This document shows positions 2-26,093 of a stretch of 34,350 nucleotides of DNA, in pieces. Under the pieces are notes generated by a model. That model had not been told where the DNA came from. It saw only the letters and a program-made list of their open reading frames with translations, and made no database searches. The position numbers were made by a program, and so were the translations under genes. How positions within the stretch are numbered: position 1 is the first letter of the stretch; every line of letters starts with the position of its first letter. Source of the stretch: Candidatus Aenigmatarchaeota archaeon. GTDB lineage: Archaea; Aenigmatarchaeota; Aenigmatarchaeia; QMZS01. Location: NCBI GenBank assembly GCA_030600555.1, contig JAUVLW010000008.1, positions 1 through 34,350 of the forward strand, given 5' to 3'.

Positions 2-2986
2 TATAAATCAGTAGCTTCTTCTTATTCAGCAATATGGGCTAAAACAGATCTTTATGTTAATAGTTCAGTCTTTGGTCCAGACCAGAGATATTTTAATATT
101 ACCAATACCAGTGTTTCTATAATAGAATTTAATGTTACAAGTTATACCAATGCCGAGGGTGGAATAAATTTATATGATTCTGATAATATAGCTTCCTGCG
201 GAACAACAAATAATATGAGCATCACAATTAATGCTTCAAATCCTTCCACTACTGTTTTAAATAATATTACAATTACAATTCGTTTTGATGTGGATACTTT
301 AGGCGGTGCTGATGCAGGCAATATAACTTATAGCAGCAATGGTTCTGGTTCTATTTCAGATTTTGATTCAGATGGATACCGCGACACGATTACTTGGACA
401 GGTGTAAACCTTCCAGCCAGCGGGGGTTCTGATTCAATTACTTTTTATATGGATATAACCGAAGTCACTAATTTTGCTAATGGGGTGACCGCTTTTAATT
501 TAGATACTGGTTTGTCGGATAAAGGAGTAAGAGGAGATTATTATTCTTCTGAGAAAGCTCTGACAGGAATGACAATTGATTATGCGTATTCAAGGGGACC
601 AATTAGGCAGGGAATAGATATGTTTGTGAGTGAGAGTGGCACTACTTGGGGTACCCGTGGGTTTATAAAAGTTTTGGCGGTAGATGCCGGTGTTGAGGGT
701 GATGTTTTAACTTACAATATTTCTAGTTGGGCCCTTTATAATGCAAGTTCTTACAATATCTCAGATGTGGATGATTTGTTGCAGAGCGGAACTTTTTCAC
801 AAACCAATTTTACAGCAGCATCCACAGCCAATAATTTATATACTACAGATACTCTTTCAAGTAATGGTTCAAGATATAATTGGAATGGACCTAAACCTTA
901 TATTGCGTCTTCTTTTGACTGGTATGTGCATTGGAATGAGACTTATCGTTATTATATTACTTATATAAATACAACTCTGGATTTACCAACTTTATATAAA
1001 CTGGATATTGATCCACATATAACGTTGGATGGTTATTTAGCTCCTTCTTCAAGCACTACTTACAATGTAACCGACACAGCAGAATATATAGGGAATAATA
1101 ATGCGCCAGTTTCAGGAGTGATAATTTTTTCAGATATTCCAAACAGCACTACAACTGGCGCTGCCAAGACTTATTTAATTGCTTCAAATGCAAGGGTTTA
1201 TTTTGATTCCGGGGGTTCAAGAACAGACCTAACCGGAAATACCACAGTAACTATTAATATTACCCAACCTGACGGGAGTTCGCCTGGGCTTGTAAATTTG
1301 ACTATTATAGATTTATCCCAGACTGATGCCCCCCACAATCTTTTGGTTGGCGAGAATGTGACTTTAATTTATGATTTAACAACAGGAAGTGATTTGGGTT
1401 CATCTGATGGGTTTAATTCCACAGGAAATGTAACTTTAATTTCTGAGACCGGAACTCCTTTAACTAAGGATTTTGATGCACAAACTTTAACTGTTTCCGG
1501 TAGAACTTTGGAAGGTTACAAAGATTTATGGGTGCCTGATTCAGCATATCCAACTTTGGTGAATGGGTCTTTAGTGGTTAAAGTAGGCGGTGGAGCAATT
1601 TCAGGAATTAAATTTGTGGATTATGTGCCTTTGGGAACAAATTTCTCTTGCAATACTACTTATATAAATTTTTATAGTACTTCAGATGGTGGGACTAATT
1701 GGGTGCCTGATACAAATGTAACCGCTACTGATTTAGGGAATGTGACTTTGTCAAACGGGGTTTCAGTTCAGGCCTGCGAATATTCTTCAGATGGAGGCAA
1801 TGGGTGGAATTTGAGTGATGATGAAGGCGTGAAAGTAAGTTACCAAATTAACATAACAAATTCTGGTTTATATGAAATGCCAATGGAAATCGCTGGTTTC
1901 GACCCGGTGTTTGGAAGCGAGATAAGATCCAGAGCGATTGGAAGGGTGAGAGTGACTGTCCCAAATCCAATGATTGAACCAATAATAACCCAGACGGATT
2001 TCCTCACCGCAAGAACAATTACAATTGGTAAGCAAGTTAGTTGGGTAAAAGATTTTGAAGTTTATAACCCAAATTCAAGAATAATTGAAGCTGATATGGA
2101 GATAGAAGTGTTTAAAGATGCCACTGATGGGTATGTTGAATACCTGACCGAAGGGGGAATAATAAAATCAAAGGAAGAAATCAGGTTTTTGAATAAGGAT
2201 GGGAAGAGATTGATGACCTGGAAAGCAAGGTTAAATCTATTGGAATCAAGGAGCTATGAGATTAGGGTTTTAACGCCGCCTATTCTGGAAACAGATAGGG
2301 ATGTTGAGGTTATAAATAAACTTGAAGCTAAGATGGTTGAATTAAAAATGTCTATTTTCCTAAGAAACCTTGCTGAAGAAGATTATGAAAATGTTGCAAT
2401 CCACCTGCCAATCTCAAGAGACAATATGTTGGAAGTCAAAGATTCTTTTGGAAATGTTCTGTCTTACACAGGAGGAAAAGGAGCAACCACAATCTTAATT
2501 GATAAATTTGGGGCAAAGGAGTTGAAAGAGATTATCCTTAGATACAAACAAGGATATCCAAAAATAATAATTACTCCGGATAAAGAGAGATACAGTCTTG
2601 ATGCCACAGTTAATCTGGATATTCTTGTAATCCACGGAGGTGATGAATTAGCTTATCCTTATCTTGAAACAGACATTTATACTTCAAATATGGATTTAGT
2701 TTATTCAAATATCCAGGATTTAAAAAGACTCGAACCTATAGATAAAACAACTGTATCGGAGAGTTTCAAGGTTCCAGTTGGTGCGCCAACAGGGATGTAC
2801 CTTGCAGAATCCAGATTAAGGTCTGATTTAGCCACTTTGGCAACAGGAACAGGAAATTTCTATATTACCGGAGCAGCAACTAGTTATGGTAATCTTTTAG
2901 GTTATCTTGCGGTGTTTTTTATAATAATGGTTCTTTATTTCAGTTTGAAGAGATTATTTATAATAAAAAAAAGTCAAACTAAATAA
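2..2986 (+). CDS. Large surface protein with C-terminal membrane anchor (5' end outside window)
   Basis: The reading frame is open from base 2, so the internal ATG at 215 is not the real start and the gene begins upstream of the window. 994 residues are visible. They are rich in Asn, Ser, Thr and Gly with many N-x-S/T sequons, as expected of an N-glycosylated archaeal envelope protein. A hydrophobic helix close to the C-terminus (GYLAVFFIIMVLYFSL) is followed by a short basic tail (KRLFIIKKSQTK), so the bulk lies outside the cell. The segments RGPIRQG, SWVKDFEVYNPN and LETDRDVEVINKLEA match equivalents in the 1052-residue minus-strand protein at 14740-17898 (KGPVRQG, EWIKTIEIYNPN, LETKREINILEITNA), so the two are paralogues. 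Its stop overlaps the next ATG by one base (TAATG), indicating co-transcription. Function is unknown; a cell-surface structural or adhesive role is an inference. Confidence 0.85.
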   Translation, partial: YKSVASSYSAIWAKTDLYVNSSVFGPDQRYFNITNTSVSIIEFNVTSYTNAEGGINLYDSDNIASCGTTNNMSITINASNPSTTVLNNITITIRFDVDTLGGADAGNITYSSNGSGSISDFDSDGYRDTITWTGVNLPASGGSDSITFYMDITEVTNFANGVTAFNLDTGLSDKGVRGDYYSSEKALTGMTIDYAYSRGPIRQGIDMFVSESGTTWGTRGFIKVLAVDAGVEGDVLTYNISSWALYNASSYNISDVDDLLQSGTFSQTNFTAASTANNLYTTDTLSSNGSRYNWNGPKPYIASSFDWYVHWNETYRYYITYINTTLDLPTLYKLDIDPHITLDGYLAPSSSTTYNVTDTAEYIGNNNAPVSGVIIFSDIPNSTTTGAAKTYLIASNARVYFDSGGSRTDLTGNTTVTINITQPDGSSPGLVNLTIIDLSQTDAPHNLLVGENVTLIYDLTTGSDLGSSDGFNSTGNVTLISETGTPLTKDFDAQTLTVSGRTLEGYKDLWVPDSAYPTLVNGSLVVKVGGGAISGIKFVDYVPLGTNFSCNTTYINFYSTSDGGTNWVPDTNVTATDLGNVTLSNGVSVQACEYSSDGGNGWNLSDDEGVKVSYQINITNSGLYEMPMEIAGFDPVFGSEIRSRAIGRVRVTVPNPMIEPIITQTDFLTARTITIGKQVSWVKDFEVYNPNSRIIEADMEIEVFKDATDGYVEYLTEGGIIKSKEEIRFLNKDGKRLMTWKARLNLLESRSYEIRVLTPPILETDRDVEVINKLEAKMVELKMSIFLRNLAEEDYENVAIHLPISRDNMLEVKDSFGNVLSYTGGKGATTILIDKFGAKELKEIILRYKQGYPKIIITPDKERYSLDATVNLDILVIHGGDELAYPYLETDIYTSNMDLVYSNIQDLKRLEPIDKTTVSESFKVPVGAPTGMYLAESRLRSDLATLATGTGNFYITGAATSYGNLLGYLAVFFIIMVLYFSLKRLFIIKKSQTK

Positions 2987-3255
2987 TGGACATAACCGGA
3001 GATGTATATCTTTTTGGAGTAAATCTTCCTGTTACAGAACTGTTGCTTTTTCTTTCCGCAATAATTACTGTTTATCTTTTAATTCTTGAATATGAATTCA
3101 GGGAAGTGAGAGGTATTCTAAGAAAATTTGATGATGAGGAATTAATATTGACAAAAACAATCAGGGAGCTTAGGGATTCTGTTGGCGAATTAAGAAATAT
3201 TTCAAATCTCGGCTCAGAAGTTAAAAAAGAGAAACCAAAAGAGGATAAAAAATAA
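2986..3255 (+). CDS. Small single-pass membrane protein with coiled-coil tail
   Basis: An 89-residue protein whose ATG overlaps the preceding stop by one base. Residues about 15-34 (VTELLLFLSAIITVYLLILE) form one membrane helix. The rest is a charged helix with heptad-like spacing (residues about 38-75) ending in a Lys/Glu-rich tail. The translational overlap suggests it is made with the upstream surface protein and may pair with that protein's membrane anchor on the cytoplasmic face. No family recognised. A terminator-like hairpin follows the stop, so it may close this transcription unit. Confidence 0.75.
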   Translation: MDITGDVYLFGVNLPVTELLLFLSAIITVYLLILEYEFREVRGILRKFDDEELILTKTIRELRDSVGELRNISNLGSEVKKEKPKEDKK

Positions 3256-3400: not shown

Positions 3401-6400
3401 ATGGGGAAAAGATTATTTGTTTTTATTCTTGCTATAGTTTCTGTATTAAGTTTGCCTTTCTTGTTTCTAAATTCAGCAAATTTAGTTCTTGGATTTTTGG
3501 GGGTTCAGGAAACTTTTGTTCTTGATTTTAACAATACGGTTTTTAATTATACTTTGACTAAATTTGGCGATTCAAATATGACTCAGGAGTTTGATTTTAA
3601 TGAAAGCGGGGGAAATCAAACTTATTATTTATTAATACCGAAAAATGCAACTGTGCAGAATATAAGTATGAATCTTACTGGTAAATTGACTACGATTTAT
3701 AAACAACAGGTCAGTATAAATGAAATTAGGGGAATCTCTATTGGCAATGTCACAATTGATTCCAATAATGAAATTTCTATTGGAACAAAAGAGACAGATG
3801 GCAAGGTAAAATTATTATCTGGAGAGAATGGTTCAGTAATGTGGAATGTAACTTTAGCTTCCAGTCAGATAATATATTCAACAGATATTGGAAATGTTAC
3901 TTCGGATTCTGGAGAGGAAATTGTTGTTGGTTCTGAAGATAATTATATTTATTTATTGGATTCTGATGGGCTGGAAATTTGGAAGAATGATACAAATTCT
4001 GACGTTAATTCAGTTAAAATAGCCGATGTTCATGTTGATGCTGGGAATGAAATTATTGCAGGTTCAAATAATAAGGTATTTTTGTTTAATTCAACAAACA
4101 ATTTGTTGTGGAATATCACTATCAATAATTTAAATCAATTGGCGATTGGCGATATAACTTCTGATTCTGGGGATGAAATTGTGGTTGGGTGCAGCGATGG
4201 TTGGATTTATGTATTAAATTCAACAGGAATAATTGTTGATAGTTTCACCATTACAGGAGAAATAAATACTTTGGATGTTGGAAATATTTCTTCTAGTTTA
4301 AGAGACGAAATAGTACTTGGCACTGGAAGCAGTAAAATAATTATATTGAATTCAACTGGAGCAGAGATTAAGAATTACACTGCCGGGGGTTCTATAAATA
4401 GTGTTAAAATTGGAGAACTTACTAGTGATTATCAAGGCAATGAAATAATTGCGGGTTCTACTGATAAGAAGGTATATATTTTTAATAATACTGGAGATTT
4501 AATAGCGGAGTTTCTTGCAGATAATGTGGTGTATACTGTAGCTATAGGTGATTTAAATAGTGATGCGGGGAATGAAGTTGCTGCAGGAGGAGCAGGAGGT
4601 TATGTTTATACATTCAATTTTGATTATTTCCCAACAAACCTCAGTATAGATATTGGAGGTGATTCAACAAAAGACTGGAATTGCACAGAAGAAAAATTAA
4701 GAAATTCTAAAATCGCAACAGGCGGAAATTTAGTATCAGCAATAAATAATTATTTAATAAATATTTGTTCACCTGATGCGGATAATAACTGTCAGGTTCC
4801 TTTGGTGTTTAATTCTATTTTTAAAGGAAAATTAAATATTTCAAATCTTAATGTCACTTATAGCTATAACACAACCAATATAATTTATCACAACGGAAGC
4901 GCAATTCCAAACTGGTCAAGGACAAACAATATTGAAATCAATGAAGAAGTTGGTTACGGCGTTTATGCGGTTAATTTTGAGGGAATTCCCGCGGAAAATA
5001 TTACTATTAATTATATTACTGTAAACCAAAGCGCAACAACTTGTGATTTTAATTTAAGTTCTTACAGCACTGCAACTGTAAATGGAAAAAAACTCTGTAA
5101 TATTTCTTCAAACCCAATTCATTTGATTGGAGGAGAACTAATTAATCCATCACTTCAATTATTTTTATGGGATAATACAATGCAGAATGCCACACCTTTA
5201 AGTATCTTCAATACCACAGAATATTATTCCACCAGTGATTTAGATGATTACAATAAATGGATAAATTTGACATTTAATGCAACAAACGGGACTTTTACAA
5301 ATGCAACAGCCTGGTGGTCTGTAAATGATTCTGAGATTGATGGTGAAGAATTTTTGAAATCTGGTGAATGCAATCTCACACCTGAAAATGAACAAAGCAA
5401 TTGTGATACTGCAAGTCCAACTTATACTCAAATAGACTGTTCAGGAGATATTTTCTATGTGTGCAAAGAAACTGTTGGGTCTGATATGTATTTTAAATGG
5501 AAACAACTAAGTTTATCTTCATCTAGGGAATATATAGCCGGGGGTTCTTATAATCTTAAACCCAATCTTACTAACCTGGATATTACGCCTTCTTCAGAAA
5601 TCTGGAGCGCTAATTTTACTTTTTCAGTTGATGTGTCTGATGTTGATAGCGATATAATTAATTTGACCCTTTGGGTTTTTGAAAATCAGACAGGAAACTG
5701 GACAAATAAAGGTGTGGCTAGCGTAAGCAATGGGAATATGGAATTTAATTTGACTTCAGATAAAAACTGGACAGGAACCAGCAGATTTTTATTTGAGTAT
5801 TTTGATTGCAACCAAAGCGATCTTTCCCAGAAATTCCATAGCGCGACCAATACAACAATCACAAATTTTAATGTTCTTAAGCATGATATTTCTGTAGTTT
5901 ATAACGAATCCCTTGGATGTTCAGGGAATGATTCACTTGTTTTTAGGAATGATTCCTTAGTTCTTTCTGTTTTTGTTAATGACACGAATTCTTCAGATGA
6001 TGTCGAAGGAGCAAATTGTTCTTTATGGGTTGGGGGTGTTTTTGCAAATTATACGCAATCAAACGCCACGGGATTCTGCAATTTTAATTTTACCCCAGAC
6101 CAGAGTTTTAATTTAGGACATTCAAATTGGAAAATAGGCATATTCAATGATGCTCATTATACTGAAGGAAATTCAACAGAACTAAATATTACGATAAGGG
6201 GAAGCATTCACCCTGAAATAACAAACCCGGTTAATTTTTCTTTTTACAAAAATGAACCCACAACTTTTCATGCAGGATTATTAAATTTGTATGGGCTGCC
6301 TGTAAATGAAGCTGGTTATAATTGTTCTTTTTATATGGATAATACTTCAACCCCTATTGGAAATAGCTCAACAAATACTTCAGGAGGATGTTCTTTGGAT

Positions 6401-9400
6401 TATAATAATTCTGGCAGTTTTGAGGTTGGACAAAGAACTTTGATAGTAGTGATTAATAAAACCGGAGTGGATAATTATTATAATATCTCTGACAACCAAA
6501 CCAACAGATCAGTATTATTGCTAGGAAGGTTAAATTTAACAATCTTGTCGCCTTTAGAAAGCGGGAGTTATTATAAAGGACAAAATTTAAGTATCAATTC
6601 TTCAGTGGAAGATAATTGCGGTCAAAGTGTTGATGGCGCAAATGTGAACTGGCATCTTGTAAATAAATACAATCTCAATGTTACTATTGAAGACACTTCG
6701 GGGATAAACCGAACAAATTATCCAATAATCTTAAATGGAAGTTTTTTTGCGGACAGCGATTTTGAATTTATTGACTGGAAATTAAATAATACTTATCTTC
6801 AGATGGAGGGAGCAACAATATCTTTTTCAATATATCCATGGACTTCAGCAGGAAAACTGGAATTAAATAATAGTCGTGTGTATATGGATAATTTGACTGA
6901 ACTTGTATTTTTAATAAACCTAACTGCAAATACCAGCAAAGTATTGGAGATAAATTTAAAAGACAGCAATCCCTCAATGAATGATGTGGAATATAATATT
7001 CTGAATGCGGGTTTTGATTCAGGTGATTTCTCTTTGTGGGATGTTTCCTTATCTGGTGATTGCACTGCAAAGGTTTCTCTTGAAAATGAAACCTATTTTG
7101 CGGATTTATCTGCGGACCATAATTCTTTAGAAGTGTTTCAGTATCTTTTAAATATCACAAAGACAGATAAAATAAATATAAGTTACAAAGCTTGGGGAGA
7201 ATTTTATCTAAGTGAATCTTTTGTAGGAAATTTTAGTTTAAAAATAGGTAATGTTGTTTGTGATTTAACTCCTTGGAATCATCCTTATGGACCTTATGTT
7301 CCTTCGGAGCAACCTTGGGATGTAGTAACCTGCGAAGATTCTTCATTTTCTTCGGCTGAAAATATTTCCATTTTTCTTAGAGATGATGGTGATGGAGGCA
7401 CTCCCGCATCAAAAACTTATGCCCAAATAAATTATATCTGCTTTGTTGATGATGCTGGGGCTTGCGTGGATTTTCATTCAGGAGTTCAAACACAATTAAA
7501 TTTAACTCACAGAAAAGAAATCAGCAGCAATATAAATGACACTTATTTGTTGGAAGGAACAGAAGATGTTGGTAGAAGGAAAATAATTGCTGAGGCGGAA
7601 AAACTGTATTATGATTCTGATTTGGAAATAAGATATTTTAATTTAACTGGATTCTCTTATGTGAAAAATCTGACAATAAATTCTGAGTTCTGCACTCTTA
7701 ATTCAACCACAGGCATTTGGCAGTATAGGTGCATGGTAAACGCAAGTTTAGCTTTGCAGTGCGTGGTGGCGGATAATTATACATCCAGCGGAATTGTTGA
7801 TTATTCTGTTGATTTTTATAATTCAACTCCTTTGTTTATAGGAAACAACACAACAAATTCTCAGGGAATGGCTATTAAGGAATCGCAGATATATGGAGAT
7901 GGCACATACCGTTTTTCCTGCAATATAACCGACCAATCAGATATTTTTTATAATGCTACAGGAACTTCTGGCAGGTTGGTTGAGGCTACTGTATTAGGCA
8001 CCAATACCACTGCGGAATTAAATATAACCCCCGAATATCTCGAGGCATTAAATATTACCATAATCCACAATGTTACGCAAAATATGACTTTTGTTTTGAT
8101 AAATAATGGGTCCGGAGACATGTATGATCCAGTTATAAATATTTCTTCTATTTCCGGGGTATATCTCCCAGAACTGGTTTGCGACCCAATCCAAATTGGA
8201 GACAATTGCACCAAGTTGTTTAATATCACCATAACTTCAGAAGCGGATGTTGGAAATCGCACAATTTGGTTTAATATTACCTGGCAAAACGGGGATGCTA
8301 CTTATGATACTGTTAATAAAAATATAACCATTTTTATTGAATCAAACCCACAACTTGAATTTGTTGAAGATAATCTTTCTCTTTCTGTTCCAATTACTTC
8401 AGACAGAACAACAAATTTCACGATATTGAATTACGGAAATGTAAATTTAACAAATGTGATTATAAACCTGACTGGAGAAAATTCATCAACTTTTATAGAT
8501 TTGACAACTTTCAGCAACAATACTTTTAATTTAGAGCTCGGCGGAGAAGAAACAATATTTATGACAGTAAATGCTTCAACCCTGGATACTTCATGGATAG
8601 GTTCTTATGATTTAAATATTACTTTAAATACCAGTGATTGCTCTGATTGTTTAAGAAGATTGCCTTTTACTTTGGAGATAACCCCTCTTGATTGGGATGC
8701 AACACCATTAATATTGAATAAAACCGTTGGTCTAAAAGCAGAGGTAAATAAATTGGGTGAAGTGGTGATTGATAATATAAAAGATGAAAATTTTGATTTT
8801 AATTTATCAATTACCCGTAATTCAGGAACCACCACAGAATATTTAACTCTGAATGATACTCACAAGGCAACACAGATTTTGATTACAGTAACAAATAACA
8901 CAGAAAGGATTATTGAAGTATTTTATAATACCAGTGTTGACCCAGATGCCATAGGAACCTATAATTATACTCTTAAAGTTGAGAATCTGGATTCGGGTGT
9001 GCCTGAATTTATAAATATTTCAATATTTTTTGAAATAATAAATTTTACGGTAGATATCATCAGCCCAAATGGGACATTCCCTGTTGGAAATATTGAAATA
9101 AACGATACTTTGGAAATTAATGTAACTGCTTTGTCCGGAAGCGATTCTGTGGGTGAGAATATGAGTTGGATTGTTTTAGTTGGGGGAGAATATTGTCCTA
9201 TCATCAATTATTCATATCATTCAGGCAACGAATTGTGGAATATTAATTGCACAGCCCCAAATATTACAAATAATATCCTTAGGAATGATTTGGAGGTTAC
9301 TGGAACTTATACCGTGAATAATATTGTTTTATCAGATTTAGAAGAAGATTCAATTATTTATAAGGATTCCATTTCCCCATGGTTTTCAAACATAACCGCA

Positions 9401-12310
9401 GATTTTATTAACAATAATACTTATACGCAGGATTATATAATTTTTGAAGTAAATATAACCGACAACAAAAATATAAGTTCTGTGAGCGCTAAAGTAACCC
9501 ACACCAACACCGGAGAATACTGGAATTTAAATTCTAATAATTATTCGGAAACTTATTTATCAGCTGAAAATGAATTTGATAAGAGAAATTTTGTTTTTAA
9601 TTTTTCAAGACCGGAGTATACCGGAGATTATGATATAATTGTTTATGCAAATGATACGACTATAGGTAATGCTGAGAGCAATAAGACAGGATGGTTTGAT
9701 ATTTATATTCCGGTGCAGGTCAGCGGAAATTTAACAGATCCGGATGGAACCCCTATAGACGCAAACTTTACTTTTTATAGGGAAGGGTCTGATTTGGATG
9801 AAGCTTACAAAATGCACGAAAATACCACAGAATCCAGCGAGATTTATAACTGGACATTGCACAAGAGAAAGTATGATATAAAAATTGATATGTTTGGTCA
9901 GGAAATAGTATTGCATGATGCGGATTTTAATAATTCCAATAACCTAAATAATCCTTTTAAGTTTGATTATTATTCAAACCATACCTGCACTCATTTAACT
10001 TCTGAGGATTTAGCCACAGCGCGTTATCCTATTATTGGAATTGTTATTGATACAAATTTAACAGATTCCGCGGAATTTGAAATTGATTTTGAGGCTGCGT
10101 TGCAAAATGCTTTAAATTCAGGGTTTAGTATTCAGAGAGATAATCTTGAGGTTATTGCTTGCCATAACTGGAGTTATTCAAGTCAGACCTGTGATTCTTC
10201 ATTTGAATATGTAAATAGATCAATAGCTCCCGAAGGCAATATTATTAGTTTTTCTGTTTCTGATTTGTCGGCTTTTTTTGTTGCGGAGGCTTGTTATTCT
10301 TCAGGTAATGACTTGATAGATTGCAGCGGTTATGGTGACCCTCCAATTATCCCTCCAAGCCCAAGTTCACCTAGCGGAAGCACTGGCGGAAGCACCACCG
10401 TGGATTTGGAACTTTCAACTTGCGGAGATGGTGTTTGCGAAGTTGGAGAGAATTATCAGAACTGTCCGCAGGATTGTCCTTTGGACGATTTCCCTTTAAT
10501 TGTGGACACAAATCTTGCAAATGTAAGAATATTTCAGGGAGATTCAAGAACCTATCAGCTTTCTTTGAAGAGCAGAATGAGTGGAGATGTTGATGTTGGT
10601 TTGGTTGTTACAGGCACTCTAAAGGAATTATTGAGTTTAAGTTCTACAAGGAAAGTCATACAACCCGGAGACACAGAAGAATTGGATTTATATCTTACAA
10701 TCCCTATGAATCAGAGCACTGGGATATATTCAGGAAATATTGAGCTTAGGGCAGGAGCGCAGGCAAAGAATATCCCCATTTCAATAACAGTTCTTGAAAA
10801 AGCAACAGCAGTATTTTCTGTTGAACTGGAACTTGCAACAAAGGAAATAAACCCAGGGGATAATCTTGAATTCTTAGTTAAGTTGATTAATCTTGGGGAA
10901 AAGAAGACCCTGCCAATAAATTTAACTTATATAATAAAAGAGCAGAAAACAGGAAAAATAATTAGGGAGGTAAATACAAGTGTTGTTCTTGAAACCACAA
11001 AGATTCTAAGGGAGAGCATATCATTAAATATTACTGAAAAAGGCTACTATAATTTAGAAGTTTGGGCAATATATTATGATAGAGGGATTATGGATGTAGA
11101 AACATTTGAAGTGGTCAGACCTTTGTTTGAAACACCCTGGATGGTTGGGCTAATTTTAATTGCGTTATTGATGGGTATAACCGTAGGCGGGACTTATATA
11201 TGGCGTTATTATATTATCTGGAAAAAAGAAAAGGAAAAAGAAGAAAGATATTTATATCCTTTAGATTATAGAAAAGTTCCAAGGGAGGGATTTAAAATTG
11301 GTAAATTTGCTGGAACTAATAATTATTGTTATTATGACCCTAAGGATTTGACAACCCATTTAATATCCGCTGGGGCGACTGGAGCAGGGAAATCTGTATC
11401 CGCTTCAGTGATTGCTGAAGAAGCTCTTGACAAAAATGTTCCTGTAATTGTTTTTGACCCAACAGCCCAATGGACTGGTTTTGTGAAAGCGTGCAAAGAC
11501 ACAAATCTTACCAGAAGATATAAGGAATTTGATATGAGTGATTTTGATATAAAATCTTATCCAGGATTAATTTATGATGTTGAAAAACCCGACTTTGAAT
11601 TAAAAATAAAAGAATTTATAAATCCCGGAGAAATAACAATATTTTGTTTGAATAAATTAAAACCCGGAGAATATGATAAAGCCGTTGATCACATTATTAA
11701 ATCCATCTTCGGAGAGACCTGGGAAGAATCCTCTGATTTAAAACTATTGCTTGTTTTTGATGAAGTTCACAGGTTACTTGAAAAATATGGTGGGACTGGA
11801 GGTTATGTTGCTCTTGAAAAAGCAGCAAGGGAATTCAGGAAATGGGGCATTGGAATTATAATGTGTTCTCAGGTATTGGCGGACTTTAAATCAGCAATAT
11901 CCGGTAATGTTCTTACAGAGATTCAATTAAATACAAAATCTTTAGTGGATATAGAAAAAGTAAAGACAAAATATGGAGAGCAATATTCACAGAGGATTAC
12001 TAGGATGGGTGTTGGCGCAGGATTAATGCAGTATCCAAAATATAACGATGGTAAACCTTTCTTTGTTGAGTTTAGACCAACAAAGCACGATCCGCATAAA
12101 ATTACTGAAGCTGAGTTGAGTTTATATAAAACCAATATCGAGAAATTAAAACTCATTGAATCCAAGATAAAGGGTTTGAAAGAACGCAAGATATACACAG
12201 AGGATTATGAACTTGATTTTAAACTTGCTATGAAAAAACTTAAGACCGGAAATTTCAGGATGGTTGAAATCTATATAACTTCTCTTGAGAAATCGCTTGA
12301 GAAAGTCTGA
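3401..12310 (+). CDS. Giant surface protein fused to a cytoplasmic HerA/VirB4-like ATPase
   Basis: 2969 residues in one unbroken frame. Residues 1-30 form a signal/anchor (RLFVFILAIVSVLSLPFLFL). Residues about 105-410 hold seven repeats of the type IGDITSDSGDEIVVG..D..IYVLNSTG, a seven-bladed FG-GAP/PQQ-like propeller. About 1900 residues of Asn/Thr-rich, sequon-dense Ig-like sequence follow, then a Pro/Ser/Gly linker and a Cys-rich motif CGDGVCEVGENYQNCPQDC starting at C2341. One membrane helix lies at about 2581-2602 (MVGLILIALLMGITVGGTYIW). The cytoplasmic part (about 2610-2969) is a HerA/DUF87-type P-loop ATPase: Walker A GATGAGKS at 2658-2665, Walker B LLLVFDEVH with D2787/E2788, and a motor motif IIMCSQVLADFKSAISGN around Q2824. 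HerA/VirB4/FtsK relatives move DNA or protein through membranes. Here the motor is covalently joined to an extracellular giant. Substrate unknown. The coiled-coil gene follows after 2 bases. Confidence 0.88.
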   Translation: MGKRLFVFILAIVSVLSLPFLFLNSANLVLGFLGVQETFVLDFNNTVFNYTLTKFGDSNMTQEFDFNESGGNQTYYLLIPKNATVQNISMNLTGKLTTIYKQQVSINEIRGISIGNVTIDSNNEISIGTKETDGKVKLLSGENGSVMWNVTLASSQIIYSTDIGNVTSDSGEEIVVGSEDNYIYLLDSDGLEIWKNDTNSDVNSVKIADVHVDAGNEIIAGSNNKVFLFNSTNNLLWNITINNLNQLAIGDITSDSGDEIVVGCSDGWIYVLNSTGIIVDSFTITGEINTLDVGNISSSLRDEIVLGTGSSKIIILNSTGAEIKNYTAGGSINSVKIGELTSDYQGNEIIAGSTDKKVYIFNNTGDLIAEFLADNVVYTVAIGDLNSDAGNEVAAGGAGGYVYTFNFDYFPTNLSIDIGGDSTKDWNCTEEKLRNSKIATGGNLVSAINNYLINICSPDADNNCQVPLVFNSIFKGKLNISNLNVTYSYNTTNIIYHNGSAIPNWSRTNNIEINEEVGYGVYAVNFEGIPAENITINYITVNQSATTCDFNLSSYSTATVNGKKLCNISSNPIHLIGGELINPSLQLFLWDNTMQNATPLSIFNTTEYYSTSDLDDYNKWINLTFNATNGTFTNATAWWSVNDSEIDGEEFLKSGECNLTPENEQSNCDTASPTYTQIDCSGDIFYVCKETVGSDMYFKWKQLSLSSSREYIAGGSYNLKPNLTNLDITPSSEIWSANFTFSVDVSDVDSDIINLTLWVFENQTGNWTNKGVASVSNGNMEFNLTSDKNWTGTSRFLFEYFDCNQSDLSQKFHSATNTTITNFNVLKHDISVVYNESLGCSGNDSLVFRNDSLVLSVFVNDTNSSDDVEGANCSLWVGGVFANYTQSNATGFCNFNFTPDQSFNLGHSNWKIGIFNDAHYTEGNSTELNITIRGSIHPEITNPVNFSFYKNEPTTFHAGLLNLYGLPVNEAGYNCSFYMDNTSTPIGNSSTNTSGGCSLDYNNSGSFEVGQRTLIVVINKTGVDNYYNISDNQTNRSVLLLGRLNLTILSPLESGSYYKGQNLSINSSVEDNCGQSVDGANVNWHLVNKYNLNVTIEDTSGINRTNYPIILNGSFFADSDFEFIDWKLNNTYLQMEGATISFSIYPWTSAGKLELNNSRVYMDNLTELVFLINLTANTSKVLEINLKDSNPSMNDVEYNILNAGFDSGDFSLWDVSLSGDCTAKVSLENETYFADLSADHNSLEVFQYLLNITKTDKINISYKAWGEFYLSESFVGNFSLKIGNVVCDLTPWNHPYGPYVPSEQPWDVVTCEDSSFSSAENISIFLRDDGDGGTPASKTYAQINYICFVDDAGACVDFHSGVQTQLNLTHRKEISSNINDTYLLEGTEDVGRRKIIAEAEKLYYDSDLEIRYFNLTGFSYVKNLTINSEFCTLNSTTGIWQYRCMVNASLALQCVVADNYTSSGIVDYSVDFYNSTPLFIGNNTTNSQGMAIKESQIYGDGTYRFSCNITDQSDIFYNATGTSGRLVEATVLGTNTTAELNITPEYLEALNITIIHNVTQNMTFVLINNGSGDMYDPVINISSISGVYLPELVCDPIQIGDNCTKLFNITITSEADVGNRTIWFNITWQNGDATYDTVNKNITIFIESNPQLEFVEDNLSLSVPITSDRTTNFTILNYGNVNLTNVIINLTGENSSTFIDLTTFSNNTFNLELGGEETIFMTVNASTLDTSWIGSYDLNITLNTSDCSDCLRRLPFTLEITPLDWDATPLILNKTVGLKAEVNKLGEVVIDNIKDENFDFNLSITRNSGTTTEYLTLNDTHKATQILITVTNNTERIIEVFYNTSVDPDAIGTYNYTLKVENLDSGVPEFINISIFFEIINFTVDIISPNGTFPVGNIEINDTLEINVTALSGSDSVGENMSWIVLVGGEYCPIINYSYHSGNELWNINCTAPNITNNILRNDLEVTGTYTVNNIVLSDLEEDSIIYKDSISPWFSNITADFINNNTYTQDYIIFEVNITDNKNISSVSAKVTHTNTGEYWNLNSNNYSETYLSAENEFDKRNFVFNFSRPEYTGDYDIIVYANDTTIGNAESNKTGWFDIYIPVQVSGNLTDPDGTPIDANFTFYREGSDLDEAYKMHENTTESSEIYNWTLHKRKYDIKIDMFGQEIVLHDADFNNSNNLNNPFKFDYYSNHTCTHLTSEDLATARYPIIGIVIDTNLTDSAEFEIDFEAALQNALNSGFSIQRDNLEVIACHNWSYSSQTCDSSFEYVNRSIAPEGNIISFSVSDLSAFFVAEACYSSGNDLIDCSGYGDPPIIPPSPSSPSGSTGGSTTVDLELSTCGDGVCEVGENYQNCPQDCPLDDFPLIVDTNLANVRIFQGDSRTYQLSLKSRMSGDVDVGLVVTGTLKELLSLSSTRKVIQPGDTEELDLYLTIPMNQSTGIYSGNIELRAGAQAKNIPISITVLEKATAVFSVELELATKEINPGDNLEFLVKLINLGEKKTLPINLTYIIKEQKTGKIIREVNTSVVLETTKILRESISLNITEKGYYNLEVWAIYYDRGIMDVETFEVVRPLFETPWMVGLILIALLMGITVGGTYIWRYYIIWKKEKEKEERYLYPLDYRKVPREGFKIGKFAGTNNYCYYDPKDLTTHLISAGATGAGKSVSASVIAEEALDKNVPVIVFDPTAQWTGFVKACKDTNLTRRYKEFDMSDFDIKSYPGLIYDVEKPDFELKIKEFINPGEITIFCLNKLKPGEYDKAVDHIIKSIFGETWEESSDLKLLLVFDEVHRLLEKYGGTGGYVALEKAAREFRKWGIGIIMCSQVLADFKSAISGNVLTEIQLNTKSLVDIEKVKTKYGEQYSQRITRMGVGAGLMQYPKYNDGKPFFVEFRPTKHDPHKITEAELSLYKTNIEKLKLIESKIKGLKERKIYTEDYELDFKLAMKKLKTGNFRMVEIYITSLEKSLEKV

Positions 12311-12312
12311 TT

Positions 12313-14649
12313 ATGGTAGAAGATGAAGGAAATGTAATGACGGGTGAAGAATTTAGGGATATTGAAAAAAAAGAGGATGCTGTAAAAAAGAAGAGGTTTG
12401 GTTTTTTCAAAAAGAAAGAAGTGGTATCTTTTATTCCAAAATCCCAGAATGTTGAAGGTCCTTTACAGGATGCAATACTAAAACTTGAGAGACTTGGTGG
12501 TCGAGTGGAAATACTTGAAAGCACAAGACCAGAGACAAATGAAAAGATAAGCAGCGTAATTGAGAAAATAGGTGAGTTAAGATCATCTTTAATAGAGAGG
12601 GATAGGAGTTATAATAAATTAGAAAAAAATTTTGATAAGATTTCTGAAGTTGCAAAAGAGTTGGAGCTTGATGATATTTTTAAGAATCTTGAAAAGAAAG
12701 ATGCAAAAATTGAAAAGAATACTGCGGTTGTGGAATCTCTTAATGATAAGGTTTCAATAATTTCAAGAAAATTTGCGGATATCTTTTCTTCTGTGGAACA
12801 AATAAAAGGACTCAAAGATGTTGTTGGTATCACGGAGGAATTAAATAAAAAAATAAATTTAGTGGAAGAATTGAAGACAAAAACAGAGAAAAATGCAGGA
12901 AAGGTTGATTCTTTATTTTATGAATTAAAGGAAACTTATAACAAGATGAGAACATATCTTTCAAAAATAGAGGTGAATGAGGATTCAATGAAGGAGTTGT
13001 TGAGAACTGTTGATAGGTTGTCTCTTAAGGTGGAGGAATCTTCTTCAAAAGAAAATATGGAGAAATTAAAGAATGCGTATGAAGGGAAGATGGTGGAGTT
13101 TAAATTTGACACCAATAGCAAGATAGGAGACCTTGCGGATATAGTGGGGGAAGTTAACAGGAAGATCTCCGGAGGCACAAAAACTGATGTGGAAGTTCTC
13201 AAAGAGCTTATAAGAGGTAAGGTAATGGAGCTGCCTGAATTAAAAGAGGATTTACCCAAAATAATTAAATCTGATTTAAATGATAAACTTACGGAATATA
13301 ATCGCCAGTTGTCTGATATTAATGCAAAGATAGATAAGAAAACAGAAGAAAGCGTTAAGGAAAAATTATCTGAGATTTCCGCAACAATAGGAGAACTTGA
13401 TAATTATAAATCGGATTTGAATGAGGTTAAAAATAAAATATCTTTTGCTGAAAAAGAACATTCAACTATTGGACCGATTAAATCAGATATGGAGAACAAA
13501 TTCCTAGAATATAATTCTAAATTATCAGAATTTGACAAAAAGATAAGTGAACTGGCAGGCAATCCCGGAGGTAACTTTGAAGATTTTAATTCCAAGTTAA
13601 GTTCTTTAACCGAAGAACAATCCAAAATTAATAATCAAATAAATGAATTAAAATCAGCCACTTCAGAATTTACTAAAGGAACAGATATAAAAGCAGACGA
13701 ATTAGTTAATTCAAAATTATCAGAGATTAATAAAAAGATTGATAATTTAAAGGAAAATTCAAACGCAGAATTGGAATCGCTTAGGAAAAAAGTTGAACTT
13801 GATTTGAATAAAAAAACCGAGGTTTTAATTAATCTAAATAAATTGAAGATAACTGATTTACTGATACCAATAAATAACCGATTGGATAATCTTGATAATA
13901 TGCCAGGCAATATACCTAACAATAAATTTTTGGAACTTTCAGATAAAATAGACGCATTGGATAATCTTGAAGGGATGGTGGATTTCAAAGTGATTGATAA
14001 TTTAAATACAATAAGTCTGGAGTTGAACACAAAGGTGGATAACAATGTTTCAGAGTTGCAGGCTTTAAAAAATTCACACAAGAATCAGCTGGAAGAAATT
14101 ACAAATAAAGTAAATAATTTGCAGGTCTATAAAGATCAAAAAGATAAAGAATTAACGGCCAGAGTGGATTTATTAAAAACAGAATTTAAGGAATATCTTG
14201 ATAAAAAATTGGATAGGGATACAGAACGGAAACAAAATGAAGTTTATGAAAAGGTAAATTTGGATAAGGAATATATTGAGAAAAAGTTTTTGGATTTTGA
14301 AGTTGCGCTTATTGATTTGTCAAAATCCGTGGATGATAAAATTGAAGCTAAATTAGAATCTGGCGGAAGTGAACCCGCAGAAATAAAATCTGATTACAGA
14401 CGGGGAAAATCACACTTATCAATTAATAAACTCAATATAACCAAACCAACGCAGGAAGAGGAACCATTAACCAAAGATGAAAAAATAAACCGATTGATTA
14501 ATTATATAGATACTTTGATAAGTTCTGGGAATTATGAAACTGCGAAAGAATATTATATAAAACTTTTGTCAGAGTATGAGCGATATGAAGATGGCAATCC
14601 GCATATACTTGTAAAAATAGCTCAGTTTCATGATAAGCTGAAGAATTAA
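12313..14649 (+). CDS. Long cytoplasmic coiled-coil protein, partner of the ATPase fusion
   Basis: 778 residues, no signal peptide and no membrane helix. After a basic N-terminal stretch (KKKRFGFFKKKE) almost the whole protein is Lys/Glu/Leu/Ile/Asn-rich heptad-like sequence (about 55-660), a long discontinuous coiled coil. The last 60-70 residues (INRLINYIDTLISSGNYETAKEYYIKLLSEY, quoted in part) look like a TPR-type helical pair. It starts 2 bases after the stop of the giant ATPase gene (TGATTATGG), so the two are very probably co-translated. The basic N-terminus could contact the membrane or nucleic acid. I recognise no named family. A scaffold or adaptor for the ATPase is an inference from position and architecture only. 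Confidence 0.8.
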   Translation: MVEDEGNVMTGEEFRDIEKKEDAVKKKRFGFFKKKEVVSFIPKSQNVEGPLQDAILKLERLGGRVEILESTRPETNEKISSVIEKIGELRSSLIERDRSYNKLEKNFDKISEVAKELELDDIFKNLEKKDAKIEKNTAVVESLNDKVSIISRKFADIFSSVEQIKGLKDVVGITEELNKKINLVEELKTKTEKNAGKVDSLFYELKETYNKMRTYLSKIEVNEDSMKELLRTVDRLSLKVEESSSKENMEKLKNAYEGKMVEFKFDTNSKIGDLADIVGEVNRKISGGTKTDVEVLKELIRGKVMELPELKEDLPKIIKSDLNDKLTEYNRQLSDINAKIDKKTEESVKEKLSEISATIGELDNYKSDLNEVKNKISFAEKEHSTIGPIKSDMENKFLEYNSKLSEFDKKISELAGNPGGNFEDFNSKLSSLTEEQSKINNQINELKSATSEFTKGTDIKADELVNSKLSEINKKIDNLKENSNAELESLRKKVELDLNKKTEVLINLNKLKITDLLIPINNRLDNLDNMPGNIPNNKFLELSDKIDALDNLEGMVDFKVIDNLNTISLELNTKVDNNVSELQALKNSHKNQLEEITNKVNNLQVYKDQKDKELTARVDLLKTEFKEYLDKKLDRDTERKQNEVYEKVNLDKEYIEKKFLDFEVALIDLSKSVDDKIEAKLESGGSEPAEIKSDYRRGKSHLSINKLNITKPTQEEEPLTKDEKINRLINYIDTLISSGNYETAKEYYIKLLSEYERYEDGNPHILVKIAQFHDKLKN

Positions 14650-14739: not shown

Positions 14740-17700
14740 TTACAATTTTGATTTTAGTTCACTTAATTTTTCTTTAAGTGTTTTTTTCTTGTATCTTTTA
14801 TTATACACGAAACCTGCAATTAAGAATGTCAGTATAAAAAATAAAATCCAGGGTATTTCTTTATATTCTCCGCCAGAGACAGATATCTCCAGTTTTTCAA
14901 TTAAAATTTGTTGAAAATCTGATTTATAATATGCGGATAAAATATAATCGCCTTTCAGGTATTCGTTAAGAGGAAGTTCAATATTGATTTTTTCATTTGT
15001 TGTATCAAGATGGATTAAATCAGCGTAAACAGTATTGCGATTATTTTCTGGACCTGTAATCTCAAGTTCAATATATCCTTTTTTATCTGCTTGCACAACA
15101 ATAATTGTGAGGTTCATGTTTTCTTCATTATTGTATTCTGATTTGTCAAGATAGATTTTAAGAACCGGGGGTTTTTCTTCATAGGTGAGTTCTATTGTTT
15201 TTTCTTCAAAAGAACTCATATTTAGTATTTCTATTTCAGTCTGACCATTGACATAAGAATAGTTAAGGTTGCAGTCTAATATATTTTGTATGGGCAATCT
15301 AAGATAACTTTCCTCGTAATCATATTTACCTAAATTTTTTATCATTATTTTTAGATTTAATTTTACTGAAGCATTTGTTATTTCCAGAATATTTATTTCT
15401 CTTTTTGTTTCAAGTATTGGCGAAGTTGTTGCAAAAATAAAATAAATAACTCTTTCTTTTCCTTTGATATCAATAAGAAAATCAAGAGAATCTTTTTCTT
15501 CATTTTCTATTGGGATATCATAAGTGTTTCCTTCTTTTGATTCTTTTACTTTGCTGTTCAATCTATCGCTCAGAATATTTGAGGTATACATTTCTTTTAC
15601 AGCCATTTCATTTGGGTTGTAAATTTCTATTGTTTTAATCCATTCCACAGGCTTTCCAACAAATATTTTATTTGTTTCAAATCCACTTTGTTTTATTTCA
15701 AGGTTCTGAAGTTTCCAGTATTCTCTTCTCATTTTTGTGATGGCATCTTCAAACATATATATATCATCATAATAATTGTGTCCATACAATCGGGTTATTA
15801 TTTCACTGGTGCCTAAAGGAATATATGCTCTGTAGCTAATAGTTATAATATCCTGGTCATAGAGGATAAATGTTTCTGTGGACCCGGTTATTTTTTGAAC
15901 TGTATATTCAGTATAACTTTTACCGCCTATTGTTTTGTTATATATTTTTTTAATTTCAACATTTAATTTCTCTTTTTTGTTATTTCTTAGCAGGAAGACT
16001 TCTACTTGATCTGAATAGATATTTGATTTTTCAGGCATGTAGATGAAAAAAATAGGATCTCGTATTCCTTTGGTTCCTGTATCAAGTATTTTAAAAGAAA
16101 TATCATTTTTAATCAGCGAATTTGTTATAAATTTGCTGGTGGATTCAATTTTCAGAATATCTATAAAATCTTTTGTTTCTGGCATATCACCTCCGCTTCC
16201 CCCATTGCCATCCTCGTCTTCATCACCTTCTTCACCAATTCCAGGGATATTAATAGAATCAGTTAGACTCTTTTCCACAGGAGTTCCGCTTTTTGTTGTG
16301 ATTATTGTATTCAGACCAAAAGGATAATTTACGTTTAAGTTTTCTGGACCGCGGGAGAGATTATATTTTATAAGAATAAATTCATTTACCTGAATTTTTT
16401 CAGAGGTCATTGAAGATATATTTATGAATATGGTGTCTCCAATTCGTGAGGAGGTGTAGTCAGTTATTTTTGTTTCATTTGTGTTGTTTACATAAAAAAT
16501 TTCCAGTGTTGAATTATTCCAACCAGCCAATCCAGTAATATTAATGCTAATATTTTCAAGTTGCAGAATTGCATGTCCGAGATGTTTTATTTCTTCTTCA
16601 ATACTGAGAAGACTTCCAGTTTCATCGTTGTAGATAAGATTTATTCTTTTATCAAGTTCAACTTCCATCTGGTAAAAAGTCGGCAGATTTACACTTACTT
16701 TAATAATTCTTGATCTATTTGAGCTGTCCCAGTTAATACTCCAGTTGAATGATGGTGCATAATATATATTTGGTGCGGTTGGTTTTTCTATGGTATTTAC
16801 TACAATTCCCGTATCATATATGCCTGTGCATTGGGTGTAATCGTCATTACAATTAAGATGTGTTGTTGTTAGATTGCCGGGATAAAGTATTTCTTCTGTT
16901 GAGTTGGATAATACTGAAGTGTTTTCAAGCGAGCCATTGTCAAGTATTTTATATATATTTGAGTTGTGTACCGTATAATTAATACCACTTGCTATATTTT
17001 TTATAAAACCCATAATTGTCCAGTTTGTTTCTTCTGCCATTATACGTAAACCCTGTCTTACCGGACCTTTTGCAAATCTATCAAAAATATATGTTCCTGT
17101 AAAAGTTGTTTCCAATTGGGAATAATTAAGAGAACTTTCATGCGAGTCAATATCAACTCTTAGCTGATTTCTTGGATAATTTACATCGGGGATTATTGTG
17201 CTGGTAAAATTTATTCTTGTATTTGTGTTTAGGTCCCCAGTCCATTGTATAATATCATTAAAACCATCAAAATCGCTGTTTATTAAGGAAACTATCCCTG
17301 AGTCCGCATCCACGGCTAAAATATTCATAGAATCGCTTGTGATTAAAGTGTCTCGGTTTACATTTAGATTAAATTTGATATTGTTTAGATTTTCACTTGC
17401 GTTTAGGAAAACTTCAAAGTATATTGTGTTGTTTTCCGGAGTAAGGTCTTTCCCTCCAACTTCATTCCAGTAATTAATACTTATATTTACAATAGTGTCG
17501 TCGGTAAAGTTATAGTAGATTGTTCCATTTCCTTCATCTGTATCCATATATATTCTTGTCTTATCCCCAGCAGAAGGAGAAGCTGCAACTGCTGCATAGG
17601 TTTCATTACTGGTCAGATTTGTTTTAGTTGTATTTCTTAAGGTGATTATAATATTTTGCAATACATCTTCAGTATTGAACAATTCCACCTCAACAAAACC

Positions 17701-17898
17701 CCGATTTTCCTGATTAATTAGTGTCCCATTATAGTCAAATTCTGCATTAATTGTTTCTGTGAGGTATACTACGGGAGCAGCTATAATTATAGGACCTGTG
17801 AGCAAAATCACCAAAACTATCAAAATAAGGGAACTTTTAAGATAATGCGCGTAATTTATTAAATGGGGTGAAAACCCTCTAAAAGATTGATTACTCAT
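14740..17898 (-). CDS. Large surface protein with N- and C-terminal hydrophobic segments, paralogue of the 2-2986 product
   Basis: 1052 residues. A hydrophobic helix at about 23-44 (LILIVLVILLTGPIIIAAPVV) is a signal or anchor. A second near the C-terminus (IPWILFFILTFLIAGFVY) is followed by a basic tail (NKRYKKKTLKEK). The body is beta-rich and dense in N-x-S/T sequons. An acidic Gly-rich linker (GEEGDEDEDGNGGSGGD) splits it near residues 545-565. It aligns along its length with the protein ending at 2986 (RGPIRQG/KGPVRQG, SSFDWYVHW/PSFNWSINW, VEWIKTIEIYNPN/VSWVKDFEVYNPN). It is convergent with the coiled-coil gene and divergent from uL4. A surface role is inferred; the precise function is unknown. 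Confidence 0.82.
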   Translation of the reverse strand: MSNQSFRGFSPHLINYAHYLKSSLILIVLVILLTGPIIIAAPVVYLTETINAEFDYNGTLINQENRGFVEVELFNTEDVLQNIIITLRNTTKTNLTSNETYAAVAASPSAGDKTRIYMDTDEGNGTIYYNFTDDTIVNISINYWNEVGGKDLTPENNTIYFEVFLNASENLNNIKFNLNVNRDTLITSDSMNILAVDADSGIVSLINSDFDGFNDIIQWTGDLNTNTRINFTSTIIPDVNYPRNQLRVDIDSHESSLNYSQLETTFTGTYIFDRFAKGPVRQGLRIMAEETNWTIMGFIKNIASGINYTVHNSNIYKILDNGSLENTSVLSNSTEEILYPGNLTTTHLNCNDDYTQCTGIYDTGIVVNTIEKPTAPNIYYAPSFNWSINWDSSNRSRIIKVSVNLPTFYQMEVELDKRINLIYNDETGSLLSIEEEIKHLGHAILQLENISINITGLAGWNNSTLEIFYVNNTNETKITDYTSSRIGDTIFINISSMTSEKIQVNEFILIKYNLSRGPENLNVNYPFGLNTIITTKSGTPVEKSLTDSINIPGIGEEGDEDEDGNGGSGGDMPETKDFIDILKIESTSKFITNSLIKNDISFKILDTGTKGIRDPIFFIYMPEKSNIYSDQVEVFLLRNNKKEKLNVEIKKIYNKTIGGKSYTEYTVQKITGSTETFILYDQDIITISYRAYIPLGTSEIITRLYGHNYYDDIYMFEDAITKMRREYWKLQNLEIKQSGFETNKIFVGKPVEWIKTIEIYNPNEMAVKEMYTSNILSDRLNSKVKESKEGNTYDIPIENEEKDSLDFLIDIKGKERVIYFIFATTSPILETKREINILEITNASVKLNLKIMIKNLGKYDYEESYLRLPIQNILDCNLNYSYVNGQTEIEILNMSSFEEKTIELTYEEKPPVLKIYLDKSEYNNEENMNLTIIVVQADKKGYIELEITGPENNRNTVYADLIHLDTTNEKINIELPLNEYLKGDYILSAYYKSDFQQILIEKLEISVSGGEYKEIPWILFFILTFLIAGFVYNKRYKKKTLKEKLSELKSKL

Positions 17899-17981: not shown

Positions 17982-18779
17982 ATGGTAGAAGTATATTCTA
18001 TGAAAGGTGAAAAACAGGGAACTGTGCAATTAGGTAAAGTGTTTAGCTACCCTTTAAGAGAAGATTTAATAAAAAAAGCAGTTGTTATCTCACAGGCAAA
18101 CAGAAGGCAGAAATACGGAGCCGATAAGCTTGCTGGGTTAAGGACAAGCGCGCATTATCACGGCAATTCTACAGCTTATACTCACGCAAGAATGGCCGGA
18201 AGAGAAATGGCAAGATTGCCAAGGATTCACGGTCAGGGACCTATGTTATTTAGAGCAAGAGAAGCTCCTCAGGTAATAAAGGGCAGAAAGGCTCATCCTC
18301 CGAAAGCGGAAAGGAATTTTGCAAAAGATATGAATAAAAAGGAGAAGAAACTAGCTCTCTATTCAGCTATTTCAGCTTCAGTGAATAAAGAATTAATCTT
18401 AAAGAGAGGTCATAAAATTGAGGATTTGAAGGAGGTTCCTTTGATAATCTCAGATGATTTTTCAGGCATACAGAAAACTAAAGAGGTATTTTCTGTTTTA
18501 ACTTTATTAGGTCTTGAAAAAGAACTTGAAAGAGCAAAAGAGAAAAAAGTCAGGGCTGGAAGAGGAAAGACCAGGGGAAGGAAATACAAAAAAAAGAAAT
18601 CCACTTTGATAGTTGTGGCTGATAAATGCGAATTGCAGAAGGCAGCAAGAAATATAGAAGGTGTTGAGGTGTCTCTTGTTAGTGAATTAAATGTTGAAAA
18701 ACTTGCTCCGGGGACAATGCCGGGAAGACTTACTTTATGGACAAAATCCGCTGTTGAGCAGGCAAATAAATTAGTATGA
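17982..18779 (+). CDS. rpl4: Large-subunit ribosomal protein uL4
   Basis: 265 residues, a normal length for archaeal uL4. The central loop reaching into the exit tunnel is recognisable from GLRTSAHYHGNSTAYTHARM through LPRIHGQGPMLFRAREAPQ and KGRKAHPPK. The C-terminal part has the basic segment GRGKTRGRKYKKKKS and the ending APGTMPGRLTLWTKSAVE, typical of the family. The next gene, uL23, overlaps by four bases (ATGA). In most archaea the order is uL3-uL4-uL23-uL2-uS19, but here uL3 is missing upstream (a divergent surface-protein gene instead) and uL2 is missing downstream. Confidence 0.97.
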   Translation: MVEVYSMKGEKQGTVQLGKVFSYPLREDLIKKAVVISQANRRQKYGADKLAGLRTSAHYHGNSTAYTHARMAGREMARLPRIHGQGPMLFRAREAPQVIKGRKAHPPKAERNFAKDMNKKEKKLALYSAISASVNKELILKRGHKIEDLKEVPLIISDDFSGIQKTKEVFSVLTLLGLEKELERAKEKKVRAGRGKTRGRKYKKKKSTLIVVADKCELQKAARNIEGVEVSLVSELNVEKLAPGTMPGRLTLWTKSAVEQANKLV

Positions 18780-19051
18780 TAGGAGAAATTAATTTTTGGG
18801 ACTTAGTTGATTATCCTGTTACTTCAGAAAAAGCAGTAAGATTAATCGAAGATGAAAATAAGTTAGTATTCCAGTTAAAAGGACTGAATATCTGGAGAGA
18901 AGATGTTAAGGAATGTTTTGAAGAGGAATTTAAGGTAAAGTTAGATAAAGTAAATATATTGATTACAAGAAAAGGAGCAAAGAGAGCAATATTAAAACTA
19001 AACTCTGAATTCTCTGCGGGGGATATTGGGGTTAAATTAGGAATTATTTAA
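18776..19051 (+). CDS. rpl23: Large-subunit ribosomal protein uL23
   Basis: 91 residues of the small uL23 fold: an N-terminal segment with VTSEKAVRLIEDENKLVFQL and a C-terminal strand pair KVNILITRKGAKRAILKL. It binds 23S rRNA domain III at the tunnel exit, where the signal recognition particle docks. The ATG lies inside the end of uL4 (four-base overlap), so translation is coupled. uL2 does not follow: 121 AT-rich bases and an unrelated gene come next, so the pair is an isolated remnant of the ribosomal operon. Confidence 0.93.
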   Translation: MIGEINFWDLVDYPVTSEKAVRLIEDENKLVFQLKGLNIWREDVKECFEEEFKVKLDKVNILITRKGAKRAILKLNSEFSAGDIGVKLGII

Positions 19052-26065: not shown

Positions 26066-26093
26066 AATTATGTAGTATTCATTTTTATTGTTT

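Follow-up and report, generated by a model that had tools for sequence, protein, structure and literature searches.

A giant SPEARE-like surface protein joined to a HerA-clade ATPase, and its recurrent partner genes, in the phylum Aenigmatarchaeota

What would an archaeal cell do with a giant surface protein that carries its own cytoplasmic motor ATPase on the same chain? The question is raised by a single uninterrupted open frame of 2,969 aa at positions 3401-12310 (+ strand) of the window, which here means the whole 34,350-nucleotide stretch of DNA analyzed, contig C17 of an 815-kb genome in 34 contigs (82% complete). Its close named relatives, found in a scan of all GTDB species, are Candidatus Aenigmatarchaeota MAGs. 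A sequence-only reading of this DNA had described one 2969-residue chain containing a signal peptide (SP), a propeller, a glycosylation-rich beta region, a Cys module, a transmembrane (TM) helix and an ATPase, and the open frame, Pfam matches, repeats and sequons bear this description out. The order of parts is repeated in many relatives. The locus is laid out as follows:

2..2986, + strand: second ectodomain protein, incomplete at the 5' end where the contig stops, with a single C-terminal TM (homologues)
2986..3255, + strand: mini membrane protein, 89 aa, one TM and a charged helix (five loci have a homologue at -1 or -2)
3401..12310, + strand: giant gene, in the order SP, propeller, beta ectodomain, Cys module, Ig-like region, TM, HerA/CedD-clade ATPase (open frame, Pfam, relatives)
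3401..3490, + strand: signal peptide, residues ~1-30 (hydrophobic helix 5-23, mean hydropathy 2.85)
3698..4690, + strand: seven-repeat PQQ/FG-GAP-like beta-propeller, residues ~100-430 (repeats, Pfam)
4691..10390, + strand: N-glycosylation-rich beta ectodomain, residues ~431-2330 (sequon excess, colinear with relatives)
10421..10480, + strand: Cys-rich module CGDGVCEVGENYQNCPQDCP, residues 2341-2360 (sequence)
10490..11134, + strand: juxtamembrane region, read from its sequence as Ig-like domains, residues ~2364-2578
11138..11206, + strand: single TM helix, residues ~2580-2602, then a K/R-rich stretch (hydropathy, drop in sequons)
11213..12115, + strand: HerA/CedD/VirB4-clade ATPase core, residues ~2605-2905 (Pfam, PDB profile, NCBIfam, invariant residues)
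12113..12307, + strand: family-specific C-terminal helical tail (conserved in the family, AlphaFold2 helices)
12313..14649, + strand: coiled-coil cytoplasmic partner, 778 aa, starting 2 bases past the giant-gene stop
14740..17898, - strand: paralogue to the 2..2986 protein, made up of SP, ectodomain and one TM and oriented towards the cassette

The claim of a seven-bladed propeller held at the level of sequence. Seven repeats, at residues 115, 164, 208, 250, 294, 338 and 383 with a spacing of 42-49 aa, correspond to the seven units of about 40-45 aa each of such a fold, and Pfam matches across residues ~130-415 were obtained with PQQ_2 (1.8e-10, above cut-off) and Beta-prop_ACSF4 (1.4e-15). 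The juxtamembrane region of the window copy gave no Pfam match. AlphaFold2 models of the propeller, from a single sequence (mean pLDDT 35.2), and of the ATPase, from four close sequences (mean pLDDT 46.8), were both of low confidence, so these two folds are read from sequence; the only confident part of the ATPase model was the C-terminal tail, which formed three helices (block pLDDT 70-94).

Two strong hydrophobic helices are present in the giant protein, one N-terminal and signal-peptide-like (residues 5-23) and one at ~2582-2600. Between them lie 154 N-X-S/T sites against 52.6 expected (maximum of 76 in 300 shuffles), while after the second helix there is 1 site against 1.1 expected from shuffling, and sequon density per 100 aa is 6.02 before the TM and 0.27 after it. 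The corresponding densities in 14 relatives were 5.68 outside and 0.14 inside per 100 residues, and an STT3/AglB oligosaccharyltransferase homologue is encoded in the same genome. The sequon distribution and the AglB homologue thus support a predicted topology in which the exterior part is glycosylated and the ATPase lies in the cytoplasm. Together with the recurrence described below, they uphold the earlier proposal of a giant glycosylated ectodomain covalently fused to a HerA-class ATPase, with one outside and the other inside the cell.

The ATPase had been described as a complete P-loop domain, and all of the motifs could be located. DUF87 and HerA_C matched residues 2632-2727 above Pfam cut-offs, Walker A is GATGAGKS (2658-2665), Walker B is VFDE (2785-2788) and the SQ motif lies at 2823-2824; the key residues are K2664, D2686, D2787/E2788, R2813 and S2823-Q2824. 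The closest solved structure by profile was archaeal HerA helicase (PDB 4d2i, 6e-12), and when mapped on HerA the domain has the full HerA-FtsK superfamily set of Walker A, Walker B, SQ and trans arginine. Alteration of K154, D176, E356 or R381 in S. islandicus HerA stops ATP hydrolysis or lowers it strongly, and E356 there forms a pair with R381 from the adjacent subunit (PMC4351679). These four residues correspond in the alignment to K2664, D2686, E2788 and R2813 and were invariant in 22/22 members of A1, our alignment and profile of 22 diverse ATPase domains. HerA differs in being soluble and acting with NurA, and its R142 is not kept in the giant family, T2652 standing at the aligned position. 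Residue conservation supports a catalytically intact ATPase, and its strictness points to real ATP turnover; a hexamer is likely by homology to HerA, and the conserved trans-acting R2813 fits an oligomeric ring.

The top NCBIfam match of the window ATPase was CedD (3e-11), followed by HerA, and the two own-genome copies matched CedD at 3e-11 and 1.6e-12. At 42.7 bits, however, the window ATPase falls far below the CedD equivalog cut-off of 600 bits. In a tree, 37 family members fell on one branch (support 100/99), separate from nine soluble HerA-like proteins that the same phylum encodes; branches in this tree are long and leave the exact sister group of the family unplaced. One soluble HerA-like protein of 844 aa (L117:1103-3637, G060:C3) has an apparent intein between its Walker B and arginine motifs.

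A profile search for other proteins with this order of ectodomain and motor was successful. With the A1 profile (E<=1e-20), the ATPase family was found in 55/156 phylum genomes and 39/104 genera, and is missing from about two thirds of the phylum genomes. These counts cover the phylum; a scan of all GTDB species with a single sequence as query returned only three close Aenigmatarchaeota relatives. In every ORF inspected the ATPase is C-terminal after a long ectodomain, at lengths from 1,434 to 11,259 aa; many family ORFs are cut by contig ends, which leaves the lower part of this range less well known than the upper. The genome of the window itself holds a paralogue (G000:C20) of 1,434 aa with the same plan, an ATPase 55-56% identical, and a Cys-rich module CGNGVCEPGEYWENCPEDCS at the equivalent place and of the same type as that of the window protein. 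We found nothing in favour of an assembly or gene-calling artefact joining two genes, and the chance of one is next to nil, given the same fusion across many separate genomes and at a second locus of the window genome, and a protein that can be aligned along its whole length; an assembly fusion is excluded on these grounds.

Eight full-length members including the window protein (2,909-2,978 aa) can be aligned end to end, forming a ~2,950-aa subgroup of near-constant length without a hypervariable arm. Compared with the other seven, the window protein is 56-73% identical over the ATPase, 36-50% over the propeller, 31-42% over the middle part and 26-42% over the stretch beside the membrane, so that conservation reaches the whole protein, beyond the ATPase alone. 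Other members depart from this form. One ORF of 11,259 aa (G017:C2:31316-65095; L055, L056, L054), free of ambiguous bases, ends in a family ATPase, and the 9,409-aa nanohaloarchaeal protein that has been called the largest in cultivated archaea is shorter. Members in two genomes with strongly acidic proteins (L051, L059, L097; G012, G052; D+E 20-24%) keep the coiled-coil partner, and these acidic proteomes suggest halophiles in the same class. Two copies on G010:C53 look like decaying paralogues: in one (L087:1-3948) the TM stretch is tandemly duplicated, Walker A reads GATDSGK and SKV replaces SQV, and the other (L087:16517-17933) is broken into two ORFs, a Cys-rich one of 84 aa and a TM-ATPase of 385 aa. 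The multi-TM copy was considered as a channel fusion and dropped, its TM stretch being a tandem duplication and its Walker A and SQ motifs altered. As these altered motifs illustrate, some family copies may lack ATP hydrolysis.

The setting of the cassette is chromosomal housekeeping, with no mobile element, judged by the neighbouring genes for ribosomal proteins L4 and L23 (window 17982-19051). Further along, DUF116 proteins occur as a tandem pair (window 25448-26711) adjoined by GHMP kinase, flavoprotein, aconitase X and UbiD genes. No relative was found in viral contigs or in phages, and plasmids gave one weak HerA-like match.

A homologue of the coiled-coil gene lies at +1 or +2 on the same strand in 38/43 loci. 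The encoded protein is highly charged, and its core remains BLAST-alignable between subgroups; an SMC/apolipoprotein identity was dropped because the matches reflect coiled-coil composition only. Upstream of the giant gene, loci of the ~2,950-aa subgroup encode mini TM-plus-coil proteins of 72-111 aa and a second ectodomain protein of ~1,000-1,100 aa with one C-terminal TM. The latter was found in 18/151 genomes, all of which (18/18) carry the ATPase (p ~1.6e-9 by a hypergeometric count that ignores relatedness), and the 14740..17898 paralogue clusters with the window 2-2986 protein and with relatives that flank other loci. The coiled-coil protein and the upstream gene products seem to belong to one device together with the giant protein.

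At loci of the larger form, a second giant secreted protein often stands behind the coiled-coil gene. Three of these are complete at their C-terminal ends and show one TM plus a short tail, which appears to resemble the C-terminus of the coiled-coil proteins. Proteins of 70-73 aa that read like winged-helix DNA-binding proteins lie beside the second giant secreted protein at L089, L102 and L105. A MinD/ParA-like ATPase gene adjoins four loci, a neighbour that would fit surface machines that are positioned in the cell. The third gene upstream of the own-genome paralogue encodes a laminin-G/concanavalin-like protein (L008:1-1173, G000:C20; Laminin_G_3 3.6e-24).

The joining of ectodomain and motor, which the sequence-only reading had set against HerA-class ATPases that normally act as separate hexamers, is not unique, as the order is published for the nanohaloarchaeal SPEARE giants (PMC10266531), with related C-termini in an earlier paper (PMC6642349). 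Hamm et al. in 2019 described giant SPEARE proteins in Nanohaloarchaeota that are mostly outside the cell, have a TM near the C-terminus and include at least one laminin-G domain; the conserved intracellular part was first read as type III restriction domains, and similar sequences were noted in Woesearchaeota, Aenigmarchaeota, Micrarchaeota and Altiarchaeales (PMC6642349). A 2023 paper reinterpreted the intracellular part as a VirB4/TraG-like ATPase and put forward an injection straw hypothesis for SVXNc_0300 and BNXNv_0298, which share the plan SP-Ig-propellers-Ig-TM-VirB4/TraG ATPase; SVXNc_0300, of 9,409 aa, has a signal peptide, Ig, two propellers, ~75 Ig, a TM, the ATPase and a coiled coil, and a second VirB4/TraG ATPase with PF03135 (SVXNc_0299) is encoded downstream (PMC10266531).

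Compared with these published descriptions of SPEARE giants (NAR1_1133, SG9 SPEARE 1-4, SVXNc_0300, BNXNv_0298), the window protein has the signal peptide, a giant ectodomain of propeller/Ig type, a TM near the C-terminus and a cytoplasmic C-terminal region with a VirB4/TraG-like (HerA-clade) ATPase, identified here by DUF87 and HerA_C matches above cut-off. The family also gives the same stray ResIII (type III restriction) matches. In contrast, the window protein has no protease domain by Pfam and no laminin-G domain by Pfam up to E 0.1, and we therefore call it SPEARE-like, short of a strict SPEARE protein. The coiled coil that is part of the nanohaloarchaeal giant is a separate downstream gene in the window, standing where the nanohaloarchaeal locus has its PF03135 VirB4, and the ~2,950-aa subgroup differs from SPEARE in its fixed length and two dedicated membrane partners. 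A common origin of the window family and the SPEARE giants is very likely on comparison with the published descriptions. What is newly recognized here, on top of the published design, is a widespread family with a near-constant coiled-coil neighbour and, in the ~2,950-aa subgroup, a second ectodomain protein of its own.

The reading that we prefer, and to which we give an even chance, is a SPEARE-like membrane ATPase ring with adhesive arms that acts where the cell touches another cell or a surface. The N-terminal propeller and the N-glycosylation-rich beta-domain arm, about 2,550 aa, would stand outside the cell, one helix would pass through the membrane and the HerA/CedD-clade ATPase would lie inside. 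Several copies would probably make a ring with active sites completed in trans by R2813, and this ring would cooperate with the coiled-coil protein encoded directly behind the giant gene and, in the ~2,950-aa subgroup, also with the second ectodomain protein and the mini membrane protein. ATP hydrolysis would be coupled to the arms via the membrane helices, and at the contact the complex would grip and move a polymer, or would remodel or pull the contact. The gene, the order of its parts, the topology signals, the conserved catalytic residues, the partner genes and their presence in many genomes are observations; the ring and its stoichiometry, the host contact and what is moved are what we infer. 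Constancy of length without a hypervariable arm is unlike a fast-changing host-recognition protein and counts against this reading. So do, with regard to a hexamer, the low-confidence AlphaFold2 models and T2652 at the place of HerA R142, and further the lack of a translocation channel gene near the loci, the two type IV secretion marker domains looked for in 90 genomes and not found, and the copy with altered Walker A and SQ motifs. It is possible, at well short of even chances, that the ~2,950-aa subgroup forms the core of a distinct fixed-architecture machine that would carry force between cell interior and partner cell, in which an ATPase ring with giant arms, the second ectodomain protein, the mini membrane protein and a coiled-coil hub would act without type IV secretion parts.

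The same constancy bears on an alternative that we consider unlikely, namely that the protein belongs to a structural envelope or adhesion complex in which ATP serves assembly, anchoring or signalling, as in an integrin-like receptor with an ATPase tail. An integrin alpha chain begins with a seven-bladed FG-GAP-like propeller, continues in beta-sandwich legs and crosses the membrane once before a short cytoplasmic tail, and the giant protein is alike in propeller, legs and TM, with an ATPase in place of the short tail; this is a works-like comparison and no homology is claimed. In favour of such a complex, members of the ~2,950-aa subgroup keep a fixed length and stay colinear from end to end, a second ectodomain protein with one TM strictly co-occurs, the cytoplasmic coiled-coil partner is conserved and the seven-repeat propeller sits at the N-terminal tip. 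Retention of all HerA catalytic residues, including the trans arginine, goes beyond the needs of a scaffold, however, and with the family missing from most genomes of the phylum a general envelope part is unlikely.

The clade of the ATPase also invites readings in which something is carried across the membrane. In a DNA uptake motor like CedB/CedD, the arm would catch DNA or a partner cell and the ring would draw the DNA inwards. This is favoured by the CedD match, since CedD is a HerA-clade ATPase with a TM anchor that DNA import cannot do without. We regard it as decidedly unlikely, because the score lies so far under the equivalog cut-off and neither a VirB6-type channel (by Pfam) nor a CedA-like multi-TM gene recurring at the loci was seen. 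These crenarchaeal proteins also have a VirB4-like N-terminal domain where the window protein has its giant ectodomain. The published injection straw reading, with the giant protein in a type IV secretion-like machine for passing effectors to a host cell, has in its favour the architecture shared with SVXNc_0300 and BNXNv_0298 and the HerA/VirB4/CedD clade of the ATPase. It is highly doubtful for this family, since the VirB4 N-terminal domain (PF03135) and the VirB6/TrbL channel (PF04610) were each found in 0/90 genomes with Pfam models, which could miss divergent archaeal forms, no translocation channel gene is encoded near the giant-gene loci, a second VirB4-type ATPase does not recur there and no effector candidates were seen.

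The mechanisms by which DPANN archaea hold on to their hosts and trade material with them are still to be explained. Cryo-tomography has shown attachment organelles, whose proteins are unknown, in two Nanobdellota systems (PMC11420986). The giant protein of the window extends the published design by a newly recognized constant partner gene and a fixed-architecture subgroup, and the family argues that the published injection-straw reading needs a channel that has yet to turn up in this phylum. Its constant two-gene core, the giant ATPase and the coiled coil, together with lineage-specific partners, provides named candidates for tagging, localization and biochemistry.
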